A stretch of DNA of 64,000 nucleotides, from positions 124,001-188,000 of the forward strand of contig DEYP01000013.1 in NCBI GenBank assembly GCA_002364615.1, given 5' to 3'. A model generated the notes under the pieces. That model ran no database searches. It was given only the letters and a program-made list of their open reading frames with translations, and was not told the origin of the DNA. Origin of the DNA: Arsukibacterium sp. UBA3155. Its GTDB lineage: Bacteria > Pseudomonadota > Gammaproteobacteria > Enterobacterales > Alteromonadaceae. Of the stretch, positions 14,572 to 47,384 are shown piece by piece (position 1 is the stretch's first letter; each line of letters begins with the position of its first letter). The translations under genes and the position numbers were made by a program.

Positions 14572-15600
14572 TTATTGTGACAAGCAGCAAGCCCGTACCG
14601 TTTTTAGTAAACCTGTTTGCAAGCTTTCAACCGGTTGCCAGCCAAGCTGAGCCCGGATTTTACTGCAATCAATAGCATAGCGTCTATCGTGCCCGGCACG
14701 GTCGGTTACAAACTGAATAAATTGGTGATAACTAGCGCCTTTACTTAGCTGACAAAAACCGGCAGGGGCCAATTCATCCAGCAGATCACAAATTTGCTGG
14801 ACCAATGCTAAATTAGTCAGCCCGCTTAAGCCGCCTATATTGTAGCTCTCACCGACTATACCTTTAGTTAATATAAGATAAAGCGCTGCAGCATGGTCGT
14901 CAACGTATAGCCAGTCACGAATTTGTTGGCCATCACCATAAACTGGAATAGGCTTGCCAGCTAACGCGTTGTGAATAGTTTTCGGGATAAGCTTTTCTCT
15001 ATGCTGCCCTGGGCCATAATTATTACTGCAGTTGCTGATTACGACAGGCAGGCCATAAGTGCGATGCCAGGATCGCACCAGGTGATCTGAGCTGGCCTTG
15101 CTGGCCGCATAAGGACTGCTGGGCGCGTAGGCGGTAATTTCGCTGAATGGTTTGGCATCTGGGGCCAGATCACCAAATACTTCGTCAGTTGAAACATGGT
15201 GAAACCTGAAGGCCTGCTGTGCAGACGCTGGTAAGGTTTGCCAGTAACTGCGCGTAGCTTCAAGCAACGTATAGGTGCCGACAATATTGGTTTGAATAAA
15301 TGCTGCCGGCGCATTGATAGAATTATCAACATGGCTCTCTGCCGCCAGGTGCATAACGCAAGTAGGCTGAAAATTGGTAAAAAGATTTTGTAGCAAATTG
15401 GCATCACAAATATCGCCCTGCACCATGGTGATCCTTGGCTGCGCTTTAAAACGCTCAACCTCAGCCACATTAGCGGCGTAAGTGAGTTTATCCAGCACCA
15501 GCAACTTGTGCTGAGTATGCTTAAGCAAATAGTTAACCAGCGCACAACCAATAAATCCAGCCCCCCCGGTAATAACTACCCTAAAATCACTCTGACCCAT
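14572..15600 (-). CDS. rmlB: dTDP-glucose 4,6-dehydratase
   Basis: A 342-residue short-chain dehydrogenase/reductase. It has the NAD site [19 protein letters not shown] with its Asp/Glu pair, and the YAASK catalytic Tyr/Lys. It converts dTDP-glucose to the 4-keto-6-deoxy sugar for dTDP-rhamnose. The first residues MGQSDF are encoded by a RAYT-type repeat (ATGGGTCAGAGTGATTTT), and the normal family start, a Met just before the VVITGG strand, is gone. There is no other start codon between this ATG and the NAD motif. The C-terminus ends soon after LQTGLLKTV as usual. Confidence 0.93.
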
Positions 15601-15651
15601 TTAATTATTCACTCTGACCCTTTTTAAAGAATAACTTATTCACTCTGACCC
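15586..15651 (-). repeat. three direct RAYT-type half-sites at the rmlD-rmlB junction
   Basis: The half-site CACTCTGACCC occurs three times in the same orientation. Read on the minus strand, these are one GTGATTTT subtype and two GTGAATAA subtypes. The copy at 15639-15651 encodes the end of RmlD (MGQSE and stop). The copy at 15586-15598 encodes the start of RmlB. The middle copy with AAAAAGGG is noncoding and sits where the rmlB ribosome site should be. No palindrome is formed here, unlike at most other loci. Confidence 0.9.
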
Positions 15652-16526
15652 ATTTTTTGCAGGCAGATGGAGAGGCTATGTTGCCACGGGGGCAGACTAA
15701 GACCAAGTTGCTCCGTCAATGCTTCACTGGACAGCACACTGAAAGCCGGCCGCTTTGCCAGAGCGAGCCACTGGTTACTGCTTACTGCAGCGACAGCGAT
15801 ATCGCTGCGGGTTAGTCTGACAATTTCCTGCGCTAATTGATACCAGCTTGCCTGGCCCTGACCGGCGCAGTGCAGCAGCCTGGTTTTGGCAAAGCGTTCA
15901 GTAAAGTCTGGTGCCATAACCAGCTTAATACAAAGCGCTGCGAGCTCGCGGGCGTAGGTGGGGCTGCCTATTTGGTCGTTAACCACCTGCAAAAGACTGC
16001 CCTGGCGAATTTTACTAACTATACGGCGGACAAAATTGTGGCCAAACTCACTGTACAACCAACTGGTGCGCAAAATTAACCCTGCTGGCGCGATATCTAG
16101 CATCGCATTCTCGCCGGCCAGTTTACTCTTGCCATATTGATTAAGCGGTGCCGGCGTATCGATTTCAGTATAGGGCTGATGTTGCCCGCCGTTAAAAACA
16201 TAGTCGGTACTACAATGCAGTAACGCTGCACCATTGGCTTTGGCGTAATGGCTAAGCTCCGCAACTAATTGCTGGTTAATAAGCCACGCCAGTTCAACCT
16301 GGCGCTCTGCTTCATCTACATTGGTGTAAGCACAAGCATTAATAATGATTGACGGCGAGTACTGTTGTAAACAGTGCTTGAGCGCTCTGCTGTCTGTCAG
16401 TTCCAGCGCCTGACGCGGTATAAAGCACAGCAGCCGTCGAGTGGCGTCTGGTAAGTTCATGGCTTCAGCGTTCAGCGCCTGGCCTAACTGGCCGGACGCA
16501 CCGAGGATCACTATCCGCCTAGTCAT
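15636..16526 (-). CDS. rmlD: dTDP-4-dehydrorhamnose reductase
   Basis: A 296-residue reductase with the NADPH site ILGASGQLGQAL, STDYVFNGG and the catalytic YGKSK. It performs the last step of dTDP-L-rhamnose synthesis. The final five residues MGQSE and the stop are encoded by a RAYT-type repeat, so the original terminus has been replaced or extended. It overlaps rmlC by 8 bases, indicating translational coupling. Confidence 0.92.
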   Translation of the reverse strand: MTRRIVILGASGQLGQALNAEAMNLPDATRRLLCFIPRQALELTDSRALKHCLQQYSPSIIINACAYTNVDEAERQVELAWLINQQLVAELSHYAKANGAALLHCSTDYVFNGGQHQPYTEIDTPAPLNQYGKSKLAGENAMLDIAPAGLILRTSWLYSEFGHNFVRRIVSKIRQGSLLQVVNDQIGSPTYARELAALCIKLVMAPDFTERFAKTRLLHCAGQGQASWYQLAQEIVRLTRSDIAVAAVSSNQWLALAKRPAFSVLSSEALTEQLGLSLPPWQHSLSICLQKMGQSE

Positions 16527-17094
16527 ACAACTTATCAGTAATATTAAAATGAACTGGAAGCGCGCTTAGCAGTGGCTGTTGCTGATCTTTCGCTGATAAC
16601 CGCAACTGCGAAGGCTGTATAGGCCAGCTTATTGCCAGCGTTGGATCAGCATAATGTAAGCCGCAATCATCTGCCGGACTGTAATAATTATCAACTTTAT
16701 ATTGTAGTAATGCGTGCGACGTTAACGTCAGATAGCCATGAGCAAAGCCACGCGGAATAAATAGCTGCTGAAGCGTATCGGCCGACAACGGCGTAGCCAG
16801 TGCCTGACCAAATGTCGGGCTGCCGTGGCGAATATCGACAATAACATCCAGTATCGCTCCCTGCAGTACGCGCACCAGCTTACTTTGGGCAAAAGGCGGT
16901 TTTTGATAATGCAGCCCCCGTAACACGCCCAATTGCGAAACAGCTTCATTGTCCTGAATAAAACGCACACTATAGCCAGCAGCGTCATCCAACTGCTGCT
17001 GCCGGTAGGTTTCAGCAAAATAACCGCGTTCGTCACTATATGCTTTGTGTTCCAGCAGTAAGGCACCGGTTAAAGCTAATTTACTAATTTTCAT
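16519..17094 (-). CDS. rmlC: dTDP-4-dehydrorhamnose 3,5-epimerase
   Basis: A 191-residue cupin. It has the RmlC signature RGLHYQKPPFAQSKLVRV with the active-site His, VDIRHGSPTFG, and IPRGFAHGYLTL. It epimerises C3 and C5 of the 4-keto sugar before RmlD. It lies between rmlA and rmlD. The transcribed order A-C-D-B differs from the common B-D-A-C order. Confidence 0.92.
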   Translation of the reverse strand: MKISKLALTGALLLEHKAYSDERGYFAETYRQQQLDDAAGYSVRFIQDNEAVSQLGVLRGLHYQKPPFAQSKLVRVLQGAILDVIVDIRHGSPTFGQALATPLSADTLQQLFIPRGFAHGYLTLTSHALLQYKVDNYYSPADDCGLHYADPTLAISWPIQPSQLRLSAKDQQQPLLSALPVHFNITDKLYD

Positions 17095-17117
17095 TTTAAG
17101 TAAGTTCGGGTTTCCGG

Positions 17118-18014
17118 TTAATTTATTAATTGTAAAAGATACTGGCCGTATTGAGTATTGTGCATTGCCATTGCGAGATCTAATAATTTCGCTTTATCGA
17201 TATACCCCTGCTCGTAGGCAATTTCCTCCAGGCAAGCAATCTTTAAACCTTGTCGTTGTTCAATAACGTCAATATATGCAGAGGCGGCTTGCAAATGTTC
17301 ATGGGTACCGGTGTCAAGCCAGGCAAAACCTCGCCCGAGTAGCGTCAACGTTAATCGTTGTTGTTGCAGGTATAACTGATTTAACTCGGTAATCTCAAGC
17401 TCCCCGCGAGCCGAGGGAGAAAGTAACCGTGCTTTGTCTACGACATCGGCAGGATAAAAATACAAGCCTGTAACAGCATAATGACTTTTTGGATGCACGG
17501 GTTTCTCTTCTAATGACAATACTTTGCCGTCTTCATCCATTTCAGCCACGCCGTAGCGCTGCGGATTACTGACCCGATAACCAAAAACCGTGGCTGAATT
17601 TTGCTGAATATTTGCCAGTGCTTGTTGCAGCAGCTGGCTAAATCCATGGCCAACAAAAATGTTATCCCCTAACACTAAGCAGGCAGGACTACCCGCGAGA
17701 AAATCCTCTGCGAGTAGAAAAGCCTGAGCGATACCATCAGATGAAGGCTGGATACAATAGCTAAAATTGACACCAAAATCGTTGCCGTCACCCAGCAGTC
17801 GCTTAAAGGCCGCCTGGTCTTCCGCTGTGGTAATTAACAGGATGTCACGGATCCCCGACAGCATCAGGACAGATATCGGGTAGTAGATCATCGGTTTGTC
17901 GTAAATCGGCAGCAATTGTTTGGATACACCACGCGTGATCGGATGCAAACGGCTACCTGTGCCGCCTGCTAACACGATTCCTTTAACGCTGTTTTGTGCC
18001 CTAGCCTCGCCCAT
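17118..18014 (-). CDS. rmlA: glucose-1-phosphate thymidylyltransferase
   Basis: A 298-residue nucleotidyltransferase. The signature [20 protein letters not shown] lies near residue 17, followed by YDKPMIYYP, and [11 protein letters not shown] holds the metal-binding Asp. It activates glucose-1-phosphate with dTTP as the first step to dTDP-rhamnose. GGGA stands about six bases before the ATG. It begins the rml operon, so a promoter is expected in the 50 bases before the RAYT palindrome. Confidence 0.93.
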
Positions 18015-18064
18015 GCTCGTCCCATATCAGACATATCAATACAAAGCCTGCATCTTACCAAACT

Positions 18065-18107
18065 AAAAAGGGTCAGAGTGATTTTAAAAATCACTCTGAC
18101 CCTTTTT
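18065..18107. repeat. RAYT palindrome, subtype A (upstream of transposase)
   Basis: A 43-base near-perfect palindrome. It opens AAAAAGGGTCAGAGTGATTT and closes with the complementary arm ending CCCTTTTT. It separates the divergent rmlA and RAYT genes. Its flanks give an A-tract, hairpin and T-tract on both strands, so it should insulate the two promoters from each other's upstream read-through. Both arms are the GTGATTTT subtype. Confidence 0.93.
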
Positions 18108-18108
18108 A

Positions 18109-18136
18109 TTGCCAGTCTCGAATTTATTGCTATCTT
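18109..18136 (+). promoter_or_regulatory. possible promoter of the RAYT gene
   Basis: TTGCCA and TATCTT are separated by 16 bases and lie just downstream of the subtype A palindrome, about 30 bases before the ATG. The -35 box is close to consensus and the -10 box is moderate. No purine-rich ribosome site precedes the ATG, so translation is probably weak. Confidence 0.35.
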
Positions 18137-18166
18137 TTATACAACTTAAATTAACTTTATTTTAAT

Positions 18167-18859
18167 ATGCCACGCAGAAAACGATACCTGATTGCGAAGA
18201 TGCCCTACCATGTGGTCCAGCGGGGTCATAATCGTAGCAACTGTTTTTATGATGAAACAGATAAGGCCTGTTATCTATCGATATTAGAGACTTACCTGAA
18301 AACGTATCAGGTGCAGTTACACGCTTTTGTGTTGATGAGCAATCATGTTCATTTATTGCTGACTGCCAGCAAAGATGATGTTATTTCACGTGTAATACAG
18401 AATCTTGGACGTGATTATGTGCACTATTTTAATAAACGCTATCAAAGAGTTGGTACGCTGTGGGACGGGCGCTTTAAGGATAGCCTGGTTGAAACTGATC
18501 AGTATTTTCTGACGTGTCAGCGTTACATTGAGTTAAACCCGGTTCGGGCTAAAATGGTGGCCCACCCGGCTGATTACCATTGGTCAAGTTATCATGCTAA
18601 CGCCAGAGGTATAAAAATAAGTGTGGTCACTCCGCATCAGGTCTATTTAAATTTGGCAGAAACGGCTGAGAGGCGTTTGGAAAACTACCGGGCTTTATTT
18701 CAGGACAGCTTGCCGGCTGATGACTTAAAGTCTATCCGTGACGCTATCAAGCACAGTTATCCGCTGGCAAATGAAAGTTTTGTTCAACACCTTACTACCA
18801 AGTACAACATGAATTTTGGCCGGCGAAACAAAGGCAGGCCAGAAAAAGGGTCAGAGTGA
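18167..18859 (+). CDS. REP-associated tyrosine transposase (RAYT)
   Basis: A 230-residue Y1 single-strand transposase of the IS200/IS605-related RAYT family. It has the metal-binding pair in LMSNHVHLLLT near residue 60 and the catalytic Tyr in CQRYIELNPVRAKMV near residue 123. GTLWDGRFKDSLV and YHWSSYHANARG are typical family blocks. RAYTs bind and nick REP hairpins. This gene is single copy in the window, has no TnpB partner and is bracketed by two palindromes. Its last codons GSE and stop lie inside the downstream palindrome. It seems intact. It interrupts the polysaccharide locus on the opposite strand. Confidence 0.92.
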   Translation: MPRRKRYLIAKMPYHVVQRGHNRSNCFYDETDKACYLSILETYLKTYQVQLHAFVLMSNHVHLLLTASKDDVISRVIQNLGRDYVHYFNKRYQRVGTLWDGRFKDSLVETDQYFLTCQRYIELNPVRAKMVAHPADYHWSSYHANARGIKISVVTPHQVYLNLAETAERRLENYRALFQDSLPADDLKSIRDAIKHSYPLANESFVQHLTTKYNMNFGRRNKGRPEKGSE

Positions 18860-18885
18860 ATAAATTATTCACTCTGACCCTTTTT
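18843..18885. repeat. RAYT palindrome, subtype B (downstream of transposase)
   Basis: A 43-base near-perfect palindrome. It opens AAAAAGGGTCAGAGTGAATA and closes with the complementary arm ending CCCTTTTT. Its left arm encodes the transposase C-terminus and stop. Its right end is 8 bases from the stop of the convergent tviB copy 2. It therefore sits where a bidirectional terminator is needed. Both arms are the GTGAATAA subtype, in contrast to the upstream palindrome. Confidence 0.93.
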
Positions 18886-18893
18886 AGAAGGAA

Positions 18894-20171
18894 TTACAGC
18901 CTTAAGTCGGCGTCGGCGGCGTTAAGCAGGTATTTCAGGTCGTATAAAATATGCTGAGGCTTGGCCAGCGCTTTGATACCTGCTGCGCCCATTTCACGGA
19001 ACTGCTTGTGGGCGACAGCCAGAATAATGGCATCGTAGCTGCCAGCTGCGGGCTTGGTAATCGGAGTAATGCCGTACTCATGCTCCGCTTCTTTGCCATC
19101 AACCCAGGGGTCGTATACGTCAGCCGTTACGCCGTATTCTTTTAGCTCACTGAGGATATCTATCACTTTGGTATTGCGGATATCGGGGCAGTTTTCTTTA
19201 AAGGTCAGGCCCATTAACAACACTTTGGCCCCGGCAACGTGAATGCGCTTTTTCACCATGGCTTTTACCAGCTCACTGACCACATAGCGGCCCATGCTGT
19301 CGTTGATGCGCCGCCCAGCCAGAATAACTTCCGGATGATAACCAATAGATTGTGCTTTATGGGTTAAGTAGTAAGGGTCGACCCCGATACAGTGGCCACC
19401 AACCAGGCCTGGCCGAAATGGCAGGAAGTTCCATTTGGTGCCCGCTGCCAGTAATACTTCTTCGGTGTCGATATCCAGTTTATTAAAAATAACGGCCAAT
19501 TCATTGATCAGCGCAATGTTCAGATCTCGCTGGGTATTTTCAATAACCTTGGCAGCCTCGGCCACTCTGATACTACTTGCCATATAGGTGCCGGCAGTAA
19601 TAATGCTGGCGTATAAAGCATCAACCGTCGCCGCAATGGCCGGCGTAGAGCCGGATGTGACCTTTTTAATGGTGGTAACCCGGTGCTCTTTGTCGCCAGG
19701 ATTAATGCGCTCGGGGCTGTAACCGGCGTAAAAATCGACGTTGTATTTCAGGCCAGATACCCGCTCTATAACCGGGATACAATCTTCTTCAGTCGCGCCG
19801 GGATACACGGTTGATTCGTATATTACGATATCGCCCTGGCTTATCACTTTACCCAGCGTTTCGGATGCTTTAATTAGTGGGGTTAAATCGGGACGGCGGT
19901 GCTCGTCAATTGGCGTTGGCACCGTGACAATATAAATATTGGCACTTTTTAAGTCATCAAGCTGATGGCTGAACTGCAACTTGCTGGCAGTGGCCAGCTC
20001 TTCACTGCTGACTTCCAGCGTGTGGTCTGTACCGTTTTGCAGCTCGGCTACCCGGGCCCGATTAATATCAAAACCCAGGGTCTGATAATGCTTACCAAAT
20101 TCTACCGCCAAAGGCAGGCCGACATAACCAAGACCAATAACGGCCAGTTTTGCATCTGTTAACGCTGTCAT
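18894..20171 (-). CDS. tviB: UDP-N-acetylglucosamine 6-dehydrogenase, TviB type (copy 2)
   Basis: A 425-residue paralogue of the dehydrogenase at 8-9.3 kb, with the same [23 protein letters not shown] and [12 protein letters not shown] motifs. The start [11 protein letters not shown] is fixed by a strong AAAGGAAAG ribosome site; a longer frame would enter the upstream gene. It follows the TviC/WbpP-type epimerase by 16 bases. As in Vi antigen synthesis, the pair would give UDP-GalNAcA from UDP-GlcNAc. Substrate order (epimerise or oxidise first) cannot be told from sequence alone. Confidence 0.9.
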
Positions 20172-20187
20172 ATCTTTCCTTTTGCCA

Positions 20188-21213
20188 TTATTTTGCTGGC
20201 TGGGCAATGTACCAGGGCATCGCCACGGCGATACCTTCGTTAATAGTATGGCTGGGTAAATAGCCCAGCATTAAACGCGCTTTACTGACGTCGGCCTGCG
20301 AATGGCGGACATCGCCCGGCCTGAAATCGGCATATTGCGGACAATGTGGATAAGCAATACCGTTGCCGGCCAGTGCCGTTTGGATGGCACTGAATAACTG
20401 GTTTAAGGTAGTTCTGTCACCCACGGCCACATTAAACACTTCGCTTTGCTCAATAGTAGCCAGTGCAGCACGGATATTGGCCTGCACCGCATTGGCGATA
20501 AAACAGAAATCGCGGCTGGTTTCACCGTCGCCGTTAATGATCACTTTGTCACCGGCGATCATGGCTGCAGTCCACTTTGGAATGACCGCAGCATAGGCAC
20601 CTGCGGGGTCCTGCCGCGGCCCAAACACATTAAAATACCGCAAGCCTATACTATGAAAGCCATAGCTACGACTAAATACATCAGCGTACAGTTCGTTGAC
20701 ATATTTTGTAATCGCATAAGGGGATAAAGGCTTGCCAATATTGGCTTCTACTTTGGGCAGGGCCGGATGATCGCCATAGGTAGAACTGGACGCCGCATAC
20801 ACAAAACGTTTAACGCCCGCGTCACGGGCAGCCACCAGCATGTTTAGGAAACCACTTATGTTCACTTCATTGGTGGTAACCGGATCGGCCAGTGAGCGCG
20901 GTACTGAGCCAAGCGCCGCCTGATGCAGTACATAGTCGACTCCGGCAACGGTCTGTTGGCAATGCCCGGGGTTACGAATATCGCCTTCAATAAAGGTAAA
21001 CCGTTGCCATTGTTCAGGACTTACCAAGCGTTGCACTTCATCTAAATTACGTTGATGGCCGGTGGCAAAATTATCCAGGCCGGTAACCTGTTGATCGGCT
21101 TCCAGTAAGGTTTGTAATAAGTTGGAACCGATAAAGCCGGCACAACCGGTTATCAGCCAGCGTGGCGTAGCTGAACCTGCGGCTTTTTCTTTAATTATCT
21201 GCCTAAAATCCAT
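20188..21213 (-). CDS. tviC: UDP-hexosaminuronate/UDP-GlcNAc C4-epimerase, TviC/WbpP type
   Basis: A 341-residue SDR epimerase. It has the NAD site [22 protein letters not shown] and the catalytic YAITK. The segment [20 protein letters not shown] is typical of the WbpP/TviC group, which acts on N-acetylated sugars. The start [13 protein letters not shown] is preceded by AGAAGGAT; a longer frame adds 29 unsupported residues. Paired with tviB copy 2, it probably inverts C4 between gluco and galacto forms. Confidence 0.88.
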
Positions 21214-21333
21214 TTCTGTTAATCCTTCTACCGACTGCTGGCTGTTCAGGGTATTTTCCACACAGCACTTAACTCGCTGCAGCATAACATGGCTGCGCAA
21301 CGGAGTTAAACCTCTGCATAGCGCGTTAAAATA

Positions 21334-22470
21334 TTATTTGCTGGCGGCCATATGTTGCTTTATCGCGCTAACTATCCGCTGGCAGGCTTTACCGTCGCCA
21401 TAAGGGTTATGGGCAAAGCTCATACCCTGGTAGTACTCGCTGTCGGTAAGCAAACGGCTGACCTGCTCGACAATTCTCTGGCGGTTAGTACCAACCAGCT
21501 TTACGGTGCCGGCACTGACGGCTTCCGGCCGCTCGGTAGTATCCCGCATTACCAGCACGGGTTTGCCCAACGATGGTGCTTCTTCCTGAATACCGCCAGA
21601 ATCGGTCAGTACAATCGTCGCCTTACTCATCAGGTACACAAACGGCAGATAATCTTGCGGCGGAATTAAGTGAACATTGCTGACATCGCTCAGCAGACGA
21701 TAGACCGGCTCGCGCACATTCGGGTTTAAATGCACCGGATAAACGATGTCGCAATCGGTGAAGGTTTTTGCCAGCTCAGCTAAGGCGGCACATATTTGTT
21801 CAAAGCCATCGCCAAAACTCTCACGCCGGTGGCCGGTAACCAGAATTAAACGCCGGCCATTCTGACCATATGGAAACTGATTGGCAAAGGCGTCACTCAG
21901 TTTTTCGTCTTCAGTAATTTTATCCACTACCTGCAATAGGGCATCAATAACGGTGTTACCGGTAACCATAATAGACGTGGCAGCCACATTTTCCGCCACC
22001 AAATTAGCCGCTGAGGTATCTGTTGGGGCAAAGTGCAGGCTGGTAATGGCCCCGGTCAGCTTCCGATTAGCTTCTTCCGGCCACGGGCTATAGATGTTGC
22101 CGGTGCGCAGCCCTGCTTCAACATGGCCAACCGCAATTTTTTCATAATAGCAGCCGAGCGCCGCGGCGAAAGTGGTGCTGGTATCGCCATGCACCAACAC
22201 GATATCGGGCTGAAAATCACGTAACACCGGCTTTATTTTCAGCAAAATGCTGGTGGTCACGTCGTAAAGATCCTGGCCGGACTTCATTATGGCCAAATCA
22301 TATTCAGGTTGTATAGCAAACAAACTGAGTACCTGATCCAACATCTCACGGTGCTGGCCGGTGACACAAACCCGGCTGTCGATTTCACTGTCTTGCTTTA
22401 GCAAATTTACCAGCGGCGCCATTTTAATTGCTTCGGGGCGGGTACCGAACACGCTGAGTACTTTAATCAT
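21334..22470 (-). CDS. wecB: UDP-N-acetylglucosamine 2-epimerase
   Basis: A 378-residue non-hydrolysing epimerase. It has [40 protein letters not shown] and [10 protein letters not shown], all close to WecB. It makes UDP-ManNAc from UDP-GlcNAc. I place the start at the ATG giving [13 protein letters not shown], with AAGGAT upstream. An in-frame ATG 45 bases earlier would add [15 protein letters not shown], but that comes from a RAYT half-site and does not match any family N-terminus. No WecC-like ManNAc dehydrogenase lies beside it, so the ManNAc product may be used directly. Confidence 0.92.
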
Positions 22471-22500
22471 ATTAATCCTTAATTCTGTAAATCCATTTAA

Positions 22501-22557
22501 ATCACTCTGACCCATTTTTTCTTATAGCAGGAAAAGGAAAAAAGGGTCAGAGTGATT
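22501..22557. repeat. RAYT half-site pair, inverted polarity
   Basis: Two subtype A half-sites lie tail to tail: ATCACTCTGACCC, a 30-base spacer, then GGGTCAGAGTGAT. The T- and A-tracts are inside the loop rather than outside, opposite to the other palindromes. It begins five bases after the mlaA stop and may act as the end of the ccm-mlaA operon. The left half contains an ATG that would extend wecB in frame. Confidence 0.88.
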
Positions 22558-22561
22558 TTAA

Positions 22562-23410
22562 TTATTGGAATTCGTCAAGATAGTCCAGTAGCTCATCGTC
22601 CAGCTCTTCTTCTTTGGGCTGTGGCGGATTACCGTCGTATATTTTAAATTCCTGACGTTGATAATAAGATTCTTTAACAAAAGCGTACGGATCGAGTGAG
22701 TCTTCCAGCATTTGTTCCAGGTTCATCAACTGTTCCCGGCTATCCAAAGCATTGATCGCAAAACGGGTGATGGTTAATGGCGTACTTAGTAACGCCAACG
22801 GAAAATATAAGCCATCTACCACGTCACCTGCGGTATCACGCACCGTTGTTGGCCCGCGGCCAGGCACCATTAAATAAGCACCATCACCCACGCCCCATAC
22901 TGCAAGAGTCTGGTTAAAGTCTTCTTCCGTTTCGGTCAGACCAATTTTCGAGGCAACATCAAATAAGCCTAGCAAACCGACAGTAGAGTTAACCAGAAAA
23001 CGGCCGGCGCTGATGGCAGCACGGTCTGGTTTAGCCTGCAATAAGCCATTTAAAAAACTGGCAGGCTCGTTTAAATTCTCCACCACATTGATTAAACCTT
23101 TGCGAGCCGGCTTGGGTACCACGGTCATATAGCCTACTGTCGCTGGCCTTAATAGGTATTTATCCAGTATATCGTAGTTAAAATCCCATAATGGCCGGTT
23201 AATGGACTCCAGCGGATCACGCGGGTCAGCATAGGCAGGCGCTTCGGGCTCTGCCGCCTCTGCTGCCTCAACATATTCATTCTGCTCGGCGTTTTGCTGC
23301 TGATTTAGCGGTGTGGGCGGCTCAACCTTGCTGGCGCAGCCACTGACAAACAACGCTGCACAAAGGCTAAGCACTGCCGGTAATCGTAACGTATTGTATC
23401 TCACTGCCAT
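22562..23410 (-). CDS. mlaA: outer membrane lipid asymmetry lipoprotein MlaA (VacJ)
   Basis: A 282-residue protein with a lipoprotein signal (lipobox around FVSGC, Cys near residue 25) and an acidic linker. The MlaA core follows, with DPLESINRPLWDFN, KIGLTETEEDFNQTLAVWG and YLMVPGRGPTTVRD. It sits in the inner leaflet of the outer membrane and removes misplaced phospholipids, passing them to MlaC. The rest of the Mla system is not nearby. It starts one base after the ccmI stop, suggesting co-transcription with cytochrome maturation genes. The C-terminal tail is very acidic (EEELDDELLDYLDEF). Confidence 0.9.
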   Translation of the reverse strand: MAVRYNTLRLPAVLSLCAALFVSGCASKVEPPTPLNQQQNAEQNEYVEAAEAAEPEAPAYADPRDPLESINRPLWDFNYDILDKYLLRPATVGYMTVVPKPARKGLINVVENLNEPASFLNGLLQAKPDRAAISAGRFLVNSTVGLLGLFDVASKIGLTETEEDFNQTLAVWGVGDGAYLMVPGRGPTTVRDTAGDVVDGLYFPLALLSTPLTITRFAINALDSREQLMNLEQMLEDSLDPYAFVKESYYQRQEFKIYDGNPPQPKEEELDDELLDYLDEFQ

Positions 23411-23411
23411 G

Positions 23412-24617
23412 TCAGGGTTCCAGAGTCAGCGCTACGCTGATTTTTGCTTCGTTAAAGGTTAGGATGTCAGATTCTACCTGCAGATCGCCCGGCATTTGCT
23501 CTACAGTTCCTGCCTGTGACATACGGGCAACCACTATCACTTGCTCCGCTCTGGCTAAGCTCCATTCTGGCTGCATAGCCATTTTTTCGTCCAGCAGTAA
23601 CTCTACTTCGCCACTGGGCAGCGGTATGCGCTGCACCGCTAAGGGTAAGTTAGACCCCCCAACCGCGCGGGCGAATAAAAACAGGCTGGCATCAGGATTG
23701 GCTGCTGCCAGCTGGTGCGCTACCGTTAAGCGCACCCGGATTTGCCGGCCAATAGTGGCAATAGTATCTGCGCCCAGCTCACTTAGCTTGCTCAGAACCA
23801 GCGGATAACGCGGGTCATCTTGCTCCAGTTGCTCTGCCAGTAAGCTCCAGGCTTTAATAGCTTCAGCCGTGTCGCCTTTGTCGTGGGCGATTAACGCCAT
23901 TAACGACATGGCATCGAGGTTATCGGGCTCGGTTAACAATACCCTGGCCACCGCGCGCCCGGCCCGGCCGAGGTTTTCATCGCCACCGACCACAATTAAT
24001 GCCTGGGAGTAATTTAACAACAGCGGTATGCGGTTAGGGCTAAGCGCCAGCGATTTTTCAAATGCTTCAATAGCATCTTCCATTAAGCCCTGTGACATCC
24101 AGATCCGGCCAAGTAACATCCAGGCTACGGCGTCATCGCCATCCACTGCCAGCTTGGTGCGCAGTGCCAACGCAAACAAGCGGGTTTCATGTTCAGATAA
24201 TGGCTCACCCTGGCCCAGCAGCGCCCGCTCCCCATAACTTGCCAGTTCAGTTTTGGCTAACTGCCAGTCGGCCAGTTGCTGATAGTGGCCATTAAACCGA
24301 TAGGTTAATGCCACCACCACAAACACCAGCGCGACCAGAGCCAAATGCCATAACAACTGGTGTTTCGGCTGGCGAAAACTGATGGTTTGCTGCTGTTGCT
24401 GATTAAACTGCTGTTTTAATTCTGCCGCGGCGCTGGCAAAATCCTGCTCGGCCAACTCGCCACTGTCGCGGGCCAACGCCAGCAGTTGCAGGCGCTCTTC
24501 AAATAATTGCAGCGGCGTCTGGTTATTGGCCGCGTTGGCTTTACGGGGCCAGCTGATAATTATGACGCAAAGCGCCAACATAAGCAGGGCAACCAATAGC
24601 AGAGGCCATAACGTCAT
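23412..24617 (-). CDS. ccmI: cytochrome c maturation protein CcmI (CycH)
   Basis: A 401-residue protein with an N-terminal membrane helix (residues 4-22), a cytoplasmic loop with FEERLQLLALARDSGEL, and a second helix near residue 95. A periplasmic TPR part follows (MLLGRIWMSQGLMEDAIEAF). The C-terminal domain ends in a beta-rich stretch. It presents apocytochrome c to the heme ligation complex. It overlaps ccmH by four bases. Confidence 0.85.
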   Translation of the reverse strand: MTLWPLLLVALLMLALCVIIISWPRKANAANNQTPLQLFEERLQLLALARDSGELAEQDFASAAAELKQQFNQQQQQTISFRQPKHQLLWHLALVALVFVVVALTYRFNGHYQQLADWQLAKTELASYGERALLGQGEPLSEHETRLFALALRTKLAVDGDDAVAWMLLGRIWMSQGLMEDAIEAFEKSLALSPNRIPLLLNYSQALIVVGGDENLGRAGRAVARVLLTEPDNLDAMSLMALIAHDKGDTAEAIKAWSLLAEQLEQDDPRYPLVLSKLSELGADTIATIGRQIRVRLTVAHQLAAANPDASLFLFARAVGGSNLPLAVQRIPLPSGEVELLLDEKMAMQPEWSLARAEQVIVVARMSQAGTVEQMPGDLQVESDILTFNEAKISVALTLEP

Positions 24618-25123
24618 TTCTTACTCCGGTATTGTTCGATCAATTCGTCCAGCTCGGCATCCAGCGCAGCCGATGCGCTCTGCTCAGATGCAGACTCTGC
24701 TGCGGCTTCTGATGAAGATTCAGCAGCCTGCTGCCGGCGGCGCTTTAGCTGCAGCGCGACCAGAGCCAGCAGCATAAGCACTGGTGCCAGCCACAATAAC
24801 AAGGTGTAGCGATTTAGCGGTGGCTGATAATGTACAAAATTGCCATAACGGTTAATCATATAATCTAATACGTCGTCGCGACTGCTGCCCTGCTTAATCA
24901 TATCGTAAGTTTTCTGGCGCATGTCGACAGAGACAATCGCGTTAGAATCGGCAATATTCTGATTCTGACACTGTGGACAACGCAGCTCAGCCGTCAGCTG
25001 CTGGTAGAGTTTCCGTTGCGTTTCGTTATCAAAACGCAATGCTTCTTCTGTTGCAAAAGCCGGTGTTGCACAAGCCGAAAGGGCAAGCAGTATGCTGGTG
25101 AGGAGCCAAAGCAGAGTCTTCAT
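24614..25123 (-). CDS. ccmH: cytochrome c maturation protein CcmH (CycL)
   Basis: A 169-residue protein with a signal peptide. The thiol motif LRCPQCQNQNIADSNA lies near residue 43 and a membrane helix near residue 105 is followed by a basic and then Glu/Ala-rich tail. The two Cys reduce the apocytochrome CXXCH disulfide. The start MKTLLWLL overlaps the ccmG stop (TGATG). CcmH and CcmI are separate genes here, unlike the fused E. coli CcmH. Confidence 0.9.
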   Translation of the reverse strand: MKTLLWLLTSILLALSACATPAFATEEALRFDNETQRKLYQQLTAELRCPQCQNQNIADSNAIVSVDMRQKTYDMIKQGSSRDDVLDYMINRYGNFVHYQPPLNRYTLLLWLAPVLMLLALVALQLKRRRQQAAESSSEAAAESASEQSASAALDAELDELIEQYRSKK

Positions 25124-25707
25124 CACTGGCTGCCATCCTGTTGCCGCCATTTCTGATAAAGCGGCGCCAGTTTATTGCGCCACACCTGCGGATTAATATC
25201 GCCAATATGGTGTTCGCGCACGATGCCGTTGCTATCGACAATAAAGGTTTCAGGTGCACCGCTTACGCCTAAATCCAGCGATAAACTGCGATCTGCATCC
25301 AGTATATTAAACTGATATGGATTACCACGCTGCTGCAATTTGTTGCTGACATCGGCCTGTAGCATTGTTAAATCAAAACTTTCACCCAGCAATGGATCGA
25401 CCGGCAATACATAATATAAGCCAATAATTTTAACGCCCTGCTGCTTCAGCTCTGTCATATAACTCAGCTCGGCGTTACAGGTAGGACACCAGGTGCCCCA
25501 AACATTAAGTAAAAACGTTTCACCACGCAGTTGCTCTGGCTGCCAGCGCTGTGCTGGTTGCATTAAATCAGGCAGGCTGAATGCGGGCAACGGTTTGTTG
25601 GTGGTAACGGATTCACGCTCCATCGGGTTTGAAAACAGACCACTGAGTAAAAATAACGCCAGAGTCAGAAACAACACCAATGGCACATAAAACATAAGTT
25701 TACGCAT
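25123..25707 (-). CDS. ccmG: thiol:disulfide interchange protein CcmG (DsbE)
   Basis: A 194-residue membrane-anchored thioredoxin-like protein. It has an N-terminal helix (LMFYVPLVLFLTLALFLLSG), the active site VWGTWCPTCNAEL, and GVSGAPETFIVD with the cis-Pro. It passes reductant to CcmH or the apocytochrome. The start MRKLMFY is set by a perfect GGAGG six bases upstream. It overlaps the ccmF stop by 8 bases. Confidence 0.92.
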   Translation of the reverse strand: MRKLMFYVPLVLFLTLALFLLSGLFSNPMERESVTTNKPLPAFSLPDLMQPAQRWQPEQLRGETFLLNVWGTWCPTCNAELSYMTELKQQGVKIIGLYYVLPVDPLLGESFDLTMLQADVSNKLQQRGNPYQFNILDADRSLSLDLGVSGAPETFIVDSNGIVREHHIGDINPQVWRNKLAPLYQKWRQQDGSQ

Positions 25708-27679
25708 TAATAGCCTCCGACTTATTTGCTGCAGTAAGCCTGCTACTGCCCCGGCGATAGCGCTTATCAAGCAGTGCCACCAGCGCGCCCAGTGCCATTA
25801 GCAGCCCACCCAGCCAAATCCAACGCACAAAAGGTTTAACGTAAAGTCGCAGTGCCCAGGCATTGTCCGGCAGCGCCTCGCCCAATGATACGTAAAGATC
25901 ACGGCTTAATCTGGCATGCACTGCCGACTCGGTCATCACGGTGCGCTGAATTTGATAAAAACGTTTCTCGGCATGCAACTGGCTGATTAGCTGTCCTTTA
26001 CTGTTATGCACGGCAATTTCAGCCGCTTCGCCACCAAAGTTCGCGCCCTGCAACGGGTAGACTTCCAGTAGGGTAAACTGGTAACCGGCCAGGCTGATGC
26101 TGTCGTTAATTTGCATCCGCACATCGCGCTCGACACTGTAGGTTTTAGTCATGGCCACCCCCACCACCAACACGGCAAAACCGATATGGGCGATAGTCAT
26201 GCCATAGTGGCTGGCGTGTAACTTAAACGCGCCTTTGCTAACCGAACCAAACTGGCTAAGCCGCTGGTATAACTCGTATAATGCGGATAAGCCCACCCAG
26301 GCGCCTAACAGCAACCCCAGCAAGGCTAAATTTGCCTGGATACTTTGCATCGCAGCCAGGGTACCGAGGGCCAACGTCAGACTGGCCAGTGCAATTAAAC
26401 TAAAAGGCCCAAGTAATGGCTTCACCGGTTGCTGTTTCCAGCGCACCCAGGGCCCGAGGCCAAGCAACAACGCAAATGGAATAGTCAGGTAGTAAAACAT
26501 CTGGTTAAAAAATGGTTCGCCAATCGAAATGGTGCCCAGCCCCAACTCTTTATGGAACAGCGGGAATAGCGTGCCTAGAAACACCACCAGGGTGGCGGTT
26601 AATAAAAAGACATTATTGCCCCATAGCATCACTTCGCGCGAAAACAACTGATAACGGGCCTGACTGCGCACTGAATTCATCCGGCTGGCATATAACGCCA
26701 GCGAGCCACCAATCACCAGCAGCAAGAATATCAGTAAGAATATACCGCGGTCGGGATCGGCAGCAAACGAGTGCACCGATACCAACACGCCGGAGCGGAC
26801 TAAAAATGCCCCGACCAGACTTAACGAAAAAGCCCCTAATGCCAGTAATACCGTCCACGATTTGAACGTACCGCGCTTTTCGGTCACCGCCAGGCTGTGT
26901 AGTAACGCCGTGCCTACCAGCCAAGGCAGGAAAGACGCGTTCTCAACCGGGTCCCAGAACCACCAACCGCCCCAGCCCAGCTCGTGGTAGGCCCACCAGC
27001 TGCCAAACATAATGCCTAAGGTTAAAAACAACCAGGCTGCCAGGGTCCAGGGCCGGGCCCAGCGCGCCCAGGTACTGTCAAATTTACCACCAATTAATGC
27101 GGCGATCGCAAAGGCAAACGACACCGCAAAGCCCACGTAGCCCATATACAATAGCGGCGGGTGGATGATCATGCCAAAATCCTGCAACAGCGGATTTAAA
27201 TCCATCCCCTCGACCGGATAAAACGGCAAACTACGGGCAAACGGATTAGACATAAACAACGAAAATGCAATAAAGCCGATGTTAATAAGGCCCAGCACAC
27301 CCAGGATCCGGCCCTGCATTAACAACGGCAGGCCTTTGGAAAATATCGCCACCAGCGCAGTCCAGCCAGACAACATTAAGATCCACAGCAGCATTGAGCC
27401 TTCGTGGGAGCCAAAGCTGGCGGTGATTTTGTAGTACCAGGGTAAAATTGAACTGGAATTGGTCGCGACATTAATCACGGTAAAATCGCTGGTTAAGAAC
27501 GCATGAACCAGCGCCAGTTTTGCCAGCAAACAAAAAATAAATAAACCAATCGCCAACGGTTTGGCCTGCAGCAATGCCCGTTGGTTACCACTAAAACTGC
27601 CATAAAATGGCACTATTGCCAGTAGTACTGATAATGCCAGAGCAAAGGTCAGTGCCAGCTGGCCATATTCAGCTATCAT
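25700..27679 (-). CDS. ccmF: heme lyase subunit CcmF
   Basis: A 659-residue protein with about 13-15 membrane segments. The heme-handling WWD motif is WGGWWFWDPVENASFLPWL near residue 235. Conserved His-containing loops include IIHPPLLYMGYV and LFPLFHKELG. With CcmH and CcmI it attaches heme covalently to c-type apocytochromes in the periplasm. The length is normal for the family. It starts 11 bases after the ccmE stop. Confidence 0.93.
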   Translation of the reverse strand: MIAEYGQLALTFALALSVLLAIVPFYGSFSGNQRALLQAKPLAIGLFIFCLLAKLALVHAFLTSDFTVINVATNSSSILPWYYKITASFGSHEGSMLLWILMLSGWTALVAIFSKGLPLLMQGRILGVLGLINIGFIAFSLFMSNPFARSLPFYPVEGMDLNPLLQDFGMIIHPPLLYMGYVGFAVSFAFAIAALIGGKFDSTWARWARPWTLAAWLFLTLGIMFGSWWAYHELGWGGWWFWDPVENASFLPWLVGTALLHSLAVTEKRGTFKSWTVLLALGAFSLSLVGAFLVRSGVLVSVHSFAADPDRGIFLLIFLLLVIGGSLALYASRMNSVRSQARYQLFSREVMLWGNNVFLLTATLVVFLGTLFPLFHKELGLGTISIGEPFFNQMFYYLTIPFALLLGLGPWVRWKQQPVKPLLGPFSLIALASLTLALGTLAAMQSIQANLALLGLLLGAWVGLSALYELYQRLSQFGSVSKGAFKLHASHYGMTIAHIGFAVLVVGVAMTKTYSVERDVRMQINDSISLAGYQFTLLEVYPLQGANFGGEAAEIAVHNSKGQLISQLHAEKRFYQIQRTVMTESAVHARLSRDLYVSLGEALPDNAWALRLYVKPFVRWIWLGGLLMALGALVALLDKRYRRGSSRLTAANKSEAINA

Positions 27680-27690
27680 CGCCCTGCCCC

Positions 27691-28221
27691 TTAATACGTT
27701 GGTTTATCTGCTGGTTTACGGTAGTCATTCTCGGCAGCGCTGTCACCCGTGGCAAAATTGGCCTGCGAGGGTGGCACGTGTCGGATCCCTTTCATCGCTT
27801 CGGCGACTTCTGCAGGCATATATTCTTCGTCATGCTTGGCCAGTACTTCCGTTGCCGCAATAACATCCGGTGCCTGCAAGGTGCCTTGCGCGACAATGCC
27901 CTGCCCTTCGCGAAACAAATCAGGCAAAATGCCTTCATACTCTACCCAGACGGTCGGGCCGGTATCAACCAGCTGAAAACGAACTTTTAAACTTTGCGGA
28001 TCGCGTGACACTGTACCGGGCACTACCATGCCACCGATACGCAGGCGCTGTCCGACTATCGGTTTTACTTTATCTTTCCCCAGCCCCTCCACCAATTGAG
28101 TGGGGGTGTAAAACAAGTCAATGTTTTGCTGCAAGGCAAATAGCATGGCACCGACGGCACCGGTGATTAGGCTGATAATGAGTAAAATCGACAACAGGCG
28201 TTTTTTACGTCTTGGCTGCAT
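27691..28221 (-). CDS. ccmE: heme chaperone CcmE
   Basis: A 176-residue protein with one N-terminal anchor (about residues 8-29) and an OB-fold periplasmic domain. It contains [15 protein letters not shown] and the heme-binding His in [13 protein letters not shown] near residue 130. It carries heme from CcmC to CcmF. Its ATG overlaps the ccmD stop by one base (TAATG). Confidence 0.93.
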
Positions 28222-28421
28222 TAGATTTGTTGCTCCTGATACTGCTTAACTCGTTGTTCGCGGGCAATCGTCGCTTTTAACTGCTGCTTAAATTGGTGTT
28301 GCTGATACACACTGACGGTAATTAACCCAAGCAACAGCAAATAGGTAATACCGAACGACAACCAGACAAAAAAGCCATAGCCTCCCATGGCCAGAAATTC
28401 GCTGAACGACTGAAAATGCAT
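28221..28421 (-). CDS. ccmD: heme exporter protein CcmD
   Basis: A 66-residue single-helix protein: [20 protein letters not shown], then a hydrophobic stretch and a basic, Gln-rich tail. This is the usual CcmD layout. The start follows a strong GGAGG; a longer frame would overlap ccmC by 130 bases. It helps release holo-CcmE from CcmABC. Confidence 0.88.
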
Positions 28422-28423
28422 GA

Positions 28424-29158
28424 TTAGCCTCCTACCAGCTTTCTGACCCAGGGCCGGTGCTGTTCGTTCATTAATATGGCAGTGCGCAGCCTTAAGCAGG
28501 TTAACGCCAACAGTAATACGGCAAACGCCAGAATACTGATTAACAATGGCCACAACATGCTGGGGTCAATGGATGGTTTGGCAAACTTAGTAATACTGGC
28601 CCCCTGATGCAGGGTATTCCACCACTCTACTGAAAAATGAATAATGGGTAAGTTAATCACCCCGATTAATGCCAGCAGGCTGGACACTTTAGCGCCCACT
28701 TGCCGGTCACTGAATGCGCCATTTAACGCGATAACACCTAAGTATAAAAATAACAGAATAAGTTCCGAGGTTAAGCGGGCATCCCATACCCACCAGGCGC
28801 CCCACATAGGTTTGCCCCAGGCCATACCGGTCACCAGTGCAATGACAGTATACACCGCGCCAATTGGCGCGATGGCCAGCACGGCCCAGTGGGCCACTTT
28901 AATTTGCCAGACAAGCGCCACAAACGCCGCACTGGCCATGGCTGCGTAAGCGCCCATTGACATAATGGCGGATGGCACATGAATATGAATGATCCGGTAA
29001 CTGTCACCTTGTTGATAATCAGCCGGGGTAAATGCCAACCCCCAGATATTGCCAAGCAGCAGAAGTGCCAGCGCACTCACCATCAGGTAAGGCAGCAGTT
29101 TGCCGCAAAAATGATACAGCGTTTCACTTTTTGCGTACGGATCTAACCACTTAAACAT
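28424..29158 (-). CDS. ccmC: heme ABC exporter/heme handling protein CcmC
   Basis: A 244-residue protein with six membrane segments and the WWD motif WGAWWVWDARLTSELIL near residue 125. Heme-ligand His residues occur in IIHIHVPSA and IHFSVEWWNTLHQG. It loads heme onto CcmE. It sits two bases before ccmD and one base after ccmB. Confidence 0.93.
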   Translation of the reverse strand: MFKWLDPYAKSETLYHFCGKLLPYLMVSALALLLLGNIWGLAFTPADYQQGDSYRIIHIHVPSAIMSMGAYAAMASAAFVALVWQIKVAHWAVLAIAPIGAVYTVIALVTGMAWGKPMWGAWWVWDARLTSELILLFLYLGVIALNGAFSDRQVGAKVSSLLALIGVINLPIIHFSVEWWNTLHQGASITKFAKPSIDPSMLWPLLISILAFAVLLLALTCLRLRTAILMNEQHRPWVRKLVGG

Positions 29159-29159
29159 A

Positions 29160-29822
29160 TCAACTCACATTAATTCGCAAGGCACTGGTTACCGCCATCG
29201 GCACCAGCGCTAACGCCAATAATAACATGGCAAGTAAAATGGCCAACTGCCCCTGATACCCCAGCCCGATACTGGCAGCCTCGATAGCGCTACTGGCAAA
29301 AATTAATAGCGGAATATACAGTGGCAAAATCAGTAGCGCCAGTAAAATACCGCCTTTATCAGCAGCCATGGTAAGGGCCGAGCCAAGCACACTTAGCAGG
29401 CTAAGCAACGGGGTACCGAGCAGCAAAGTCAACGCCATTGCACCAAGTGCCGCCTGCTCCAGCCCCAGCAACAGGGCAACCACCGGTGACAACAATAGTA
29501 ATGGCAGCCCGGTGCTTAACCAGTTAGCAAAGGTTTTTGCCAGCACGAACGCCAGCAGGCTATGCCGTCCTGCCACCAACTGCTCGATAACGCCATTACG
29601 GTAATCGTCTTTAAACAGCCGCTCTGCGGCCAGCAGCACACTGAGCAGTGCCGCAATCCAGATAACCCCCGGAGCAATAATACGTAACATATTGGGCTCT
29701 GGCCCAATCCCTAATGGAAACAGACTAAGCACAATAATAAAAAACAGGATGGGGTTTAGCCAGTCGGCTTTTTGCCGGGCCAGTAAGCGCAATTCACGCT
29801 GTAAAAAAACCATGCTTACCAT
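29160..29822 (-). CDS. ccmB: heme ABC exporter membrane protein CcmB
   Basis: A 220-residue protein with six hydrophobic segments, containing RQKADWLNPILFF and DDYRNGVIEQLVAG, both typical of CcmB. It forms the membrane part of the CcmAB ATPase that releases holo-CcmE. The start overlaps the end of ccmA by 7 bases; a second ATG three codons later is equally possible. Confidence 0.92.
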   Translation of the reverse strand: MVSMVFLQRELRLLARQKADWLNPILFFIIVLSLFPLGIGPEPNMLRIIAPGVIWIAALLSVLLAAERLFKDDYRNGVIEQLVAGRHSLLAFVLAKTFANWLSTGLPLLLLSPVVALLLGLEQAALGAMALTLLLGTPLLSLLSVLGSALTMAADKGGILLALLILPLYIPLLIFASSAIEAASIGLGYQGQLAILLAMLLLALALVPMAVTSALRINVS

Positions 29823-30511
29823 CGGTAGGCCAGCTCCAGCTGAATTAAGGACTGAAATTGCAACGTAAGCTGCTGATGCGTCGTTAAGATAATGGCCCCA
29901 CCCTTATTCAGATGTTCCAGCATATGCTGTTGCAACAGGCTAATCGCGCTTTGGTCCAGTGCAGTAAAAGGCTCATCGAGGATCCAGATTAACGCCGGGG
30001 TTAACCACAACCTGGCCAGAGATACGCGCCGCTGCTGCCCGGCAGATAACATCCGGCACGGCACATCTTCCAGGCCCGCTAAACCCAGTTTGGCCAGAAG
30101 CGCCCAATCATCAGCCGGTTGCAGGGTAGCAGCGGCGCGCCAGAAACGTAAGTTTTCCAGCGCCGTTAATTGCTCATGAACACCGCTCTGATGGCCGATA
30201 TAACATAAGTTAGCGCAATAAGCTGGCAAGCTTTGAGCGAATGGCTTAGCCTGATAATACAAGTGGCCATCGTCGGGCTGTGCCAGGCCCGCTAAAATAC
30301 GTAGCAATGAACTTTTGCCGGCGCCATTTTTGCCTTGTATTTGCAGCAACTGGCCGTAACTAAGCTGAAGCGATAATTGCTCAAATAACACCCGGTCTTG
30401 CCGGATGCAACTTAACTGCTGGCCTTGTAACACAGGCCCGGCATTTTTTGTGGCAATGGATGCGGCATCCGTTGCTTCAGTGCTGGCAGATAGTGGCTGA
30501 TTTAAGTTCAC
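29816..30511 (-). CDS. ccmA: heme exporter ATP-binding protein CcmA
   Basis: A 231-residue ABC ATPase. Walker A is GKNGAGKSS, the signature is LSAGQQRRVSLARL, Walker B is LIWILDEPF, and a TTHQQ switch His is present. About 25 residues rich in Ser/Thr/Ala precede the usual family start, so a later start or a real extension is possible. It begins the ccm operon and is divergent from the FliK-like gene across about 100 bases. Confidence 0.92.
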   Translation of the reverse strand: MNLNQPLSASTEATDAASIATKNAGPVLQGQQLSCIRQDRVLFEQLSLQLSYGQLLQIQGKNGAGKSSLLRILAGLAQPDDGHLYYQAKPFAQSLPAYCANLCYIGHQSGVHEQLTALENLRFWRAAATLQPADDWALLAKLGLAGLEDVPCRMLSAGQQRRVSLARLWLTPALIWILDEPFTALDQSAISLLQQHMLEHLNKGGAIILTTHQQLTLQFQSLIQLELAYRW

Positions 30512-30614
30512 TGGCCCTGGTATCGACGGCTGTTAAAATTGCGCGCATAGTAGCATACCGCGGCGGGAATACGAATCAGAACAACTGCCGGCATGGTGAT
30601 TAATCAGGGGAAAT

Positions 30615-32735: not shown

Positions 32736-32747
32736 GGAAAAAAGCAG

Positions 32748-33071: not shown

Positions 33072-33089
33072 AAAGGGTCAGAGTGAATA
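33070..33089 (+). repeat. single RAYT half-site, subtype B
   Basis: The sequence AAAAAGGGTCAGAGTGAATA starts within the stop codon of the FlhB-like gene. It has no complementary arm of its own before the full palindrome that starts about ten bases later. It may be a remnant of a second palindrome. Confidence 0.88.
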
Positions 33090-33099
33090 AACTAGTAGT

Positions 33100-33144
33100 A
33101 AAAAAGGGTCAGAGTGAATTCTTTATTCACTCTGACCCTTTTTT
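33100..33144. repeat. RAYT palindrome, subtype B; probable convergent terminator
   Basis: A 45-base palindrome with six A's before GGGTCAGAGTGAA and the complementary arm ending CCCTTTTTT. It lies between convergent operons. The stop codon of the DUF2802 gene on the minus strand overlaps its right end. Long stem, A-tract and T-tract fit an intrinsic terminator for both the FliK-like operon and the large flhA-che operon. Confidence 0.92.
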
Positions 33145-47335: not shown

Positions 47336-47384
47336 AAAAAAGGGTCAGAGTGATTTTATCGAAAAATCACTCTGACCCTTTTTT
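47336..47384. repeat. RAYT palindrome, subtype A; probable flhB terminator
   Basis: A 49-base palindrome whose outer arms read AAAAAAGGGTCAGAGTGATT and the complement, with a short centre. It starts 14 bases after the flhB stop and ends just before the flhA promoter. A- and T-tracts flank the stem, so it should terminate the fliK-flhB operon. Confidence 0.92.

Follow-up and report, generated by a model that had tools for sequence, protein, structure and literature searches.

In the genome of Arsukibacterium sp. UBA3155 (GCA_002364615.1), a Y1/HUH transposase gene lying in a 64,000-nt stretch of contig DEYP01000013.1 (hereafter the window) is bracketed by two exact palindromes that have an identical 12-bp base and differ at their tips, namely TTTT at the left (T-type) and ATAA at the right (A-type). 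Based on comparison of 31 genomes of the genus, this locus is probably a TIRYT-type element (TIRtron), i.e. a gene of TnpAY1 subclass 2.1 between inverted repeats that would have turned into perfect palindromes like the repetitive extragenic palindromes (REPs), with T and A apical variants that may have been dispersed as units and whose sites may have been re-occupied. The genome of the window is referred to as G000 (3.9-Mb assembly; the window is positions 124001-188000 of its contig C15), and the enzyme lineage of the window transposase, together with its repeats, as alpha.

The transposase and its two palindromes

The left palindrome (18070-18102) reads GGGTCAGAGTGA-TTTTAAAAA-TCACTCTGACCC and the right one (18848-18880) GGGTCAGAGTGA-ATAAATTAT-TCACTCTGACCC, both being exact over 33 nt and enclosed by A5...T5 (18065-18107 and 18843-18885, respectively). 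The right half-site even codes for the last codons of the transposase (GGG TCA GAG TGA, i.e. G S E stop). The element comprises the following features:

18065..18107, no strand: left-end palindrome, T-type, A5-GGGTCAGAGTGATTTT-A-AAAATCACTCTGACCC-T5; T-type here in 8/8 close homologues, G000 included
18167..18859, + strand: Y1/HUH transposase of TIRYT type, 230 aa, with NHVH as its HUH motif, YIELNP as its tyrosine motif and the final GSE from the right half-site
18843..18885, no strand: right-end palindrome, A-type, A5-GGGTCAGAGTGAATAA-A-TTATTCACTCTGACCC-T5, overlapping the stop codon; A-type here in 6/8 close homologues, T-type in G018 and G020

Folded as single-stranded DNA, the left and right palindromes yielded -20.7 kcal/mol (z -9.7) and -20.3 kcal/mol (z -10.4), respectively, and 0 of 200 shuffles was as low in either case. 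The flanking by two palindrome subtypes reported in the first-pass annotation is confirmed. The neighbours of the element are a gene that by eye is rmlA-like and one for a UDP-sugar dehydrogenase, and the right end is situated between convergent genes. An Rfam search (E <=1) returned 11 matches, all to microRNA families far under their gathering scores, as long hairpins may give.

Y1_Tnp (E 3.6e-16) was the sole Pfam domain matched in the 230-aa protein, assigning it to the Y1 HUH transposase superfamily (IS200/IS605, TnpAREP); the C-terminal helix-turn-helix-like tail of subclass 2.1 was not confirmed in that search. NHVH and YIELNP were aligned in all eight close homologues, and both motifs and the protein size correspond to the subclass 2.1 motif table (NHVH, YIELNP, length near 238 aa; PMC6006769). 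The flanking AGGGTCAG repeats fit the GGGGWSAS motif of TIRYTs at 7-8 of 8 positions, the motif's first G being A or T in most alpha copies. The earlier label, REP-associated tyrosine transposase (RAYT), holds as far as the Y1/HUH family is concerned, but not for the GTAG type: the hairpin foot is AAAAA-GGG with no GTAG/GTGG tetranucleotide, the NCBIfam REP_Tyr_transpos score of 75.5 bits falls below the cut-off of 80, and 24 exact half-sites exist genome-wide, whereas GTAG-type REPs usually exceed 100 copies (PMC2817692). Judged by motifs, size and inverted-repeat type, the protein would be better classed as TIRYT (subclass 2.1) than as a GTAG-type RAYT. Nor does it behave as an active insertion sequence, a single match of >=75% identity per genome being found in the eight genomes. 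Searches with the transposase in PDB sequences and with PADLOC returned no match. Two more Y1_Tnp-like open reading frames (ORFs) were seen in G000, at G000:C10:313553 (283 aa) and G000:C29:46159 (324 aa, below cut-off).

Dispersed copies, subtypes and pairing

The window contains 14 exact copies of GGGTCAGAGTGA, and allowing <=2 mismatches raised the matches to 22 against 2.1 expected, a number reached by 0 of 100 shuffles; the whole G000 genome has 24 exact copies, compared with 0 for the reversed pattern. The first-pass annotation had assigned every copy in the window to one of the two subtypes, which applies strictly to 12 of the 14 half-sites (six exactly TTTT and six exactly ATAA), the remaining two, at 22502 (TTTA) and 33106 (ATTC), being near variants. 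Away from the transposase, the window features are:

15587..15651, - strand: array of three head-to-tail half-sites (ATAA, ATAA, TTTT) that overlaps an rmlD-like ORF at the ORF's 3' end; identical arrangement in G028, two-unit form in G022
22502..22555: two T-type half-sites set back to back (TTTA on -, TTTT on +) where an mlaA-like gene meets the start of a wecB-like ORF
33075..33138: A-type half-site plus A-type palindrome (ATTC/ATAA, 33106-33138) between fliK-like and DUF2802 genes; T-type in G022
47342..47378: T-type palindrome (site A) between flhA and flhB; T-type, A-type, beta or gamma repeats there in other species

A search of 147 relatives identified close homologues of the transposase (75-89% identity) in G028, G004, G026, G009, G022, G018 and G020, in addition to G000. 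Half-sites followed by four A/T bases numbered 23 in G000, 18 in G028, 15 in G004, at least 19 in G026 (whose locus set was drawn from the matches listed), 13 in G009, 25 in G022, 27 in G018 and 8 in G020. Among the 23 genus genomes without the alpha enzyme, three half-sites were found in G001, one in G006 and none in the other 21. Abundance was therefore far from equal with and without the gene (8-27 copies versus 0-3), and carriage of the enzyme lineage was associated with >=5 half-sites (Fisher 1.3e-7, in trials that are not independent since the species are related). Outside the genus, 3 of 141 sampled family genomes had a single half-site match each.

The dispersed copies behave like REP-type repeats in being nearly all intergenic, palindromic or paired, and tied to their cognate transposase lineage. 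Exceptions are site 8, inside a gene, a few copies that overlap ORF ends, and many unpaired half-sites. Copies also cluster near the gene, with 14 of 24 half-sites within 32 kb in G000 and 15 of 27 within 49 kb in G018, intervals that were picked after the data were seen. A T-type half-site at G000:C21:221755, with orthologues in G028, G004 and G026, is in frame within an ORF and codes NHSDPF in a linker-like stretch; by eye, this ORF resembles a periplasmic adaptor with a heavy-metal-binding motif.

The element ends are T left and A right in six genomes and T at both ends in G018 and G020, whose enzymes are 75-76% identical to the window transposase. Elsewhere in the genomes the A-type follows the same division, i.e. 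every T/A genome (n=6) has A-type copies away from the element, compared with 1 of 27 half-sites in G018 and 0 of 8 in G020. For these calls T means TTT. and A means AT.., TTTA being pooled with TTTT, and ATTC, ATTG and ATAG with ATAA. Facing partners, core variants and clustering by type were counted over 140 half-sites in the fetched loci, a set that leaves out eight G018 clusters and a few others. Like was found to pair with like in 41 of 43 exact-core palindromes genus-wide (25 T/T and 16 A/A), the two others, ATAA/CTAG and TTTA/ATAT, both being in G004. Random re-pairing within genomes gave a mean of 12.4 mixed palindromes and never <4 in 20,000 trials, a descriptive statistic, as orthologous copies are not independent. 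The genome search, tip sorting and pairing test called for in the first-pass annotation thus gave non-random pairing, and its rule of strictly homotypic palindromes stands with two qualifications in the window: the array at 15587-15651 mixes subtypes, and the arms at 33106-33138 (ATTC/ATAA) are near to each other, not identical.

The two subtypes differ in geometry as well. All 16 A/A palindromes are 33 nt long, while the 25 T/T ones span 32-51 nt. A facing partner is commoner for A-type (36 of 48) than for T-type half-sites (46 of 91; Fisher 0.006); all 12 unpaired A-type half-sites have a further copy, exact or variant, next to them, whereas among the 45 unpaired T-type ones 34 have no other exact copy in their cluster. 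Given these differences, the A-type acts like a compact palindrome, and the T-type like a half-site that has the option of pairing. For 72 of 91 T-type half-sites, pairing between the A-run and the tail is possible, which is nearly automatic given the A-rich flank beside TTTT, and the idea that a solitary AAAA-core-TTTT half-site forms its own mini-hairpin was rejected, two folded examples (-0.3 and -1.6 kcal/mol) being no better than shuffles.

One explanation, proposed in the first-pass annotation, is that a RAYT handles two separate substrate families, each recognised by its subtype. The differing ends common to six genomes and the rarity of mixed pairing conform to it, but the hairpins have A5-T5 and 12 bp in common with equal predicted stability, the G018 and G020 homologues manage with T/T ends, and several REP subfamilies at one gene are already precedented (PMC6006769), so that we regard two substrate families as quite improbable, although the first-pass interpretation as a whole is partly supported. 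Flanking by two subtypes had also been taken as matching no described system; a precedent exists in the E. coli REPtron, and two REP subfamilies flank the gene in E. coli and in nearly half of the published sample (PMC6006769). A test of TnpAREP on two REP subfamilies was not found in a term search of PMC8266576.

The arms of a palindrome also match in their core. Among 51 palindromes with <=2 mismatches per arm (including L049 from another TIRYT lineage), 41 have the consensus core and 10 a variant one, of which seven (L049 included) carry the identical change on both arms and three a change on one arm; position -1 is matched between arms in 47 of 51. At site 11, position 6 of the core varies between genomes (A in G000 and G026, G in G028, T in G004), and the other arm matches each time. 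Independent point mutation would yield mostly one-arm changes, so homotypic pairing and both-arm changes point to copying of the palindrome as a unit or to template-switch correction; selection for the hairpin is another possible cause. Template switching that maintains stems has been described (PMC8794818), and together with the matched core changes and position -1 this makes it conceivable, if on balance doubtful, that quasi-palindrome correction produced the homotypic pairing solely and with the enzyme uninvolved. Such correction alone cannot explain the dispersal, the enzyme association or the subtype change at orthologous sites described below, and it is compatible with the TIRtron explanation. 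Variant A-type palindromes with core GGGTCTGAGTGA or GGGTCGGAGTGA and arms alike, possibly a third repeat subfamily, were observed at G000:C15:116347 (L130 6352), L063 845 (G028:C1), site 11 (G004, G028) and site B (G004, G009).

Alternatively, the palindromes could now be host elements under selection, i.e. bidirectional intrinsic terminators or mRNA stabilisers whose transposase link is historical. The A5-hairpin-T5 form suits this role, as do the right end between convergent genes and site 11, likewise between convergent genes, where an ordinary terminator hairpin is seen by eye in several other species in place of the palindrome of this clade and where core position 6 is A, G or T with arms always matching. 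A service to the host may exist, given the bidirectional-terminator form and the site 11 hairpins of relatives. As the full explanation it is unlikely, since copy number follows the enzyme lineage, many half-sites are solitary (the two folded ones lacking a stable hairpin), and site A lies between the co-directional flhB and flhA, where a strong terminator would be odd and costly; a terminator scan of 15400-35300 did not list the palindromes, though the symmetric A5/T5 may defeat such a scan.

Subtype change and shared addresses

At three orthologous intergenic sites the subtype differs between species. At site A (window 47342, flhA/flhB), four genomes (G000, G028, G001 and G022) have the T-type and three (G009, G026 and G004) the A-type, the arms of the G004 palindrome reading ATAA and CTAG. 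At site B (G000:C20:91459), the T-type is found in G000, G028 and G022 and the A-type in G026 and G009, while G004 has the T-type together with a variant A-type palindrome. Site 7 (window 33075) carries the A-type in G000, G028 and G009, a mixture in G004 and the T-type in G022. Because G001 and G022, both T-type at site A, branch outside the G000-G028-G009-G026-G004 group in the species tree (support 0.88), T is probably the older state there. No account of subtype change at orthologous TIRYT sites was found in the searches made of the open-access literature, and among the matches listed in a literature search on the motif letters all titles were unrelated.

Some of these addresses hold repeats of other TIRYT lineages, namely beta (AAAAAGGGGTCGGAGCTAATA; G002, G024, G006 and a second gene in G028) and gamma (TTTCAAGGGGTCAGAACACTTGAA; G014). 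The exact gamma half-site GGGTCAGAWCACTTGA occurs in 10 copies in 4 of 31 genomes. In G021, which gave no TIRYT match at E 1e-30, 3 of 3 exact gamma copies occupy alpha sites (A, B and 11), as judged by matches on both flanks (chance values of ~1e-7 to 3e-6, which assume 13-30 alpha sites and 2000-3000 intergenic regions, are not relied on). In G014 the gamma copy that does not flank the transposase is at site B, itself ~6 kb from the gamma gene; in G006 the beta palindrome not located at the beta gene sits at site A; and by eye a delta-like repeat resembling the G005 TIR (terminal inverted repeat) is at site B of G023. Against shared addresses, 0 of 3 gamma copies of G018 (two) and G012 (one) are at alpha sites, and among the 39 beta loci listed, 25 were tested (several of these being at beta transposase genes), of which 24 matched no fetched alpha site on both flanks.

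Site A is occupied in 9 of 27 extracted orthologues, including all eight genomes of one clade, and by eye carries no such repeat in 18 of 27 (27 of 30 loci were extracted; three site-A, one site-B and three site-11 loci were not extractable, and G019 for sites A and B and G016 for site 11 were not among the loci). A repeat present in the genus ancestor that merely diverged, making the repeats of the lineages homologous, would fit the filled clade and the GGGTCAGA that alpha and gamma have in common; such ancestry is nonetheless improbable in our estimate, as 18 empty orthologues demand many losses, and G021 is distant from that clade with copies matching the TIR of a distant TIRYT (G014). Since the empty state is common and G021 distant, re-acquisition at favoured sites or in-place rewriting is likelier than ancestral presence with many losses. 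What is observed is a pattern of replacement, from which in-place replacement and its mechanism are inferred. Tentatively, and with less than even confidence, TIRYT repeats might be tenants of shared addresses, i.e. a few intergenic sites, often next to or substituting for a terminator at the end of a gene, that the resident TIRYT lineage takes over or rewrites in situ, time and again, with its own palindromes or half-sites, in which case the enzymes would target existing repeats or terminator hairpins and not random DNA.

In G006, the beta-lineage transposase at G006:C10:105169 (L039) matches over residues 1-201 and its frame continues to a 342-aa ORF, so it is probably broken, and a beta-core palindrome persists at site A of this genome. 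An IS4-family transposase gene was identified, in L205 only (L205 72-1319 in G008; NF033591, 307 bits). Its ends are of the form TGAGGTATCCCCAC / GTGGGGATCCCTCA, and ends of this kind abut alpha- and beta-kind TIRYT repeats in six genomes, similar ends being found at G004:C14:93558, G004:C22 (L111 2071), G004:C5 (L175 242), G022:C24:95, G022:C18:78151, G026:C9 (L271 4714), G015 (L211) and G027 (L214); this IS4-family element may use TIRYT repeats as landing sites, and some contigs break there.

A proposed history and its relation to known systems

We propose that the inverted repeats around a subclass 2.1 Y1/HUH gene became perfect REP-like palindromes, and that related repeats were dispersed in the genomes carrying the enzyme lineage, an association that is observed and for which the RAYT/TnpAREP family suggests enzymatic action. 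T-type and A-type would be apical variants of one palindrome: the T-type, probably older, found at the left end and otherwise as half-sites that stand alone or in loosely spaced pairs; the A-type, probably derived, found as a compact 33-nt palindrome or cluster member and at the right end, and dispersed, one exception apart, only in genus genomes with an A-type right end. The matching arms would mean that palindromes move as whole units, that one arm corrects the other during replication, or both. Copies would concentrate near the gene, and new variants would occupy addresses already holding such repeats, or independently acquiring them in other lineages.

Several points weigh against this history. 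G001 and G006 keep alpha half-sites (three and one) without the alpha enzyme, a single ATAA half-site turns up in each of two genomes outside the genus, and one A-type half-site is present in G018, whose element has T/T ends. With a low copy number and many copies orthologous, there may have been no recent activity at all. That the A-type is derived is supported chiefly by site A, G018 and G020 may instead have lost it, and the species tree consists of four gene segments (G019, with 83% missing, was dropped). No clean insertion junction or target duplication is readable at these sites because intergenic flanks evolve fast. A structure model (pLDDT 46, pTM 0.43, built from five similar sequences) was discarded, and binding, nicking and movement by the enzyme are presumed from its family.

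Like the published TIRYTs/TIRtrons (PMC3733652) and subclass 2.1 (PMC6006769), the element combines a Y1 HUH transposase of the ~238-aa class bearing NHVH and YIELNP with flanking GGGGWSAS-like inverted repeats, and some known TIR families are likewise dispersed, in dimers or clusters, or self-complementary (PMC3733652, PMC6006769). Unlike them, it has perfect 33-nt palindromes at both ends, two apical subtypes with a T/A asymmetry in six genomes, subtype change at orthologous sites, and some addresses common to other TIRYT lineages; REP-like sequences were not reported for subclass 2.1 by Quentin 2018, as far as the accessible text goes (PMC6006769). With REP/RAYT systems such as the E. coli REPtron it shares inverted palindromes of more than one subfamily around the gene, mostly intergenic copies, an abundance that tracks the enzyme, and more copies near the gene, as proposed in Nunvar 2010 (PMC2817692), but it has no GTAG/GTGG foot, tens and not hundreds of copies, and a different Y1 subclass. 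In the REP orthoswitch (Nunvar 2013, PMC3686654) the repeat class also differs at syntenic transposase genes, the new class spreads, and partial replacement of old REPs was proposed; that switch was deduced from repeat classes and copy numbers, whereas the present comparison shows the change at individual orthologous addresses. New relative to these systems are the palindromic T/A ends of a subclass 2.1 element, a change of subtype traced at single sites, core changes matched on both arms, and the sharing of some addresses between lineages.

How REP and TIR repeats spread and are placed is unsolved, and the present system offers a small, countable set of sites that can be tracked over 31 genomes. 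In it, the tip at one element end has changed, copies bearing the changed tip are nearly confined to the genomes concerned, and the new type now stands at some old sites. If it is true that different TIRYT lineages pick identical addresses, target choice would be testable with one protein and a few short oligonucleotides.
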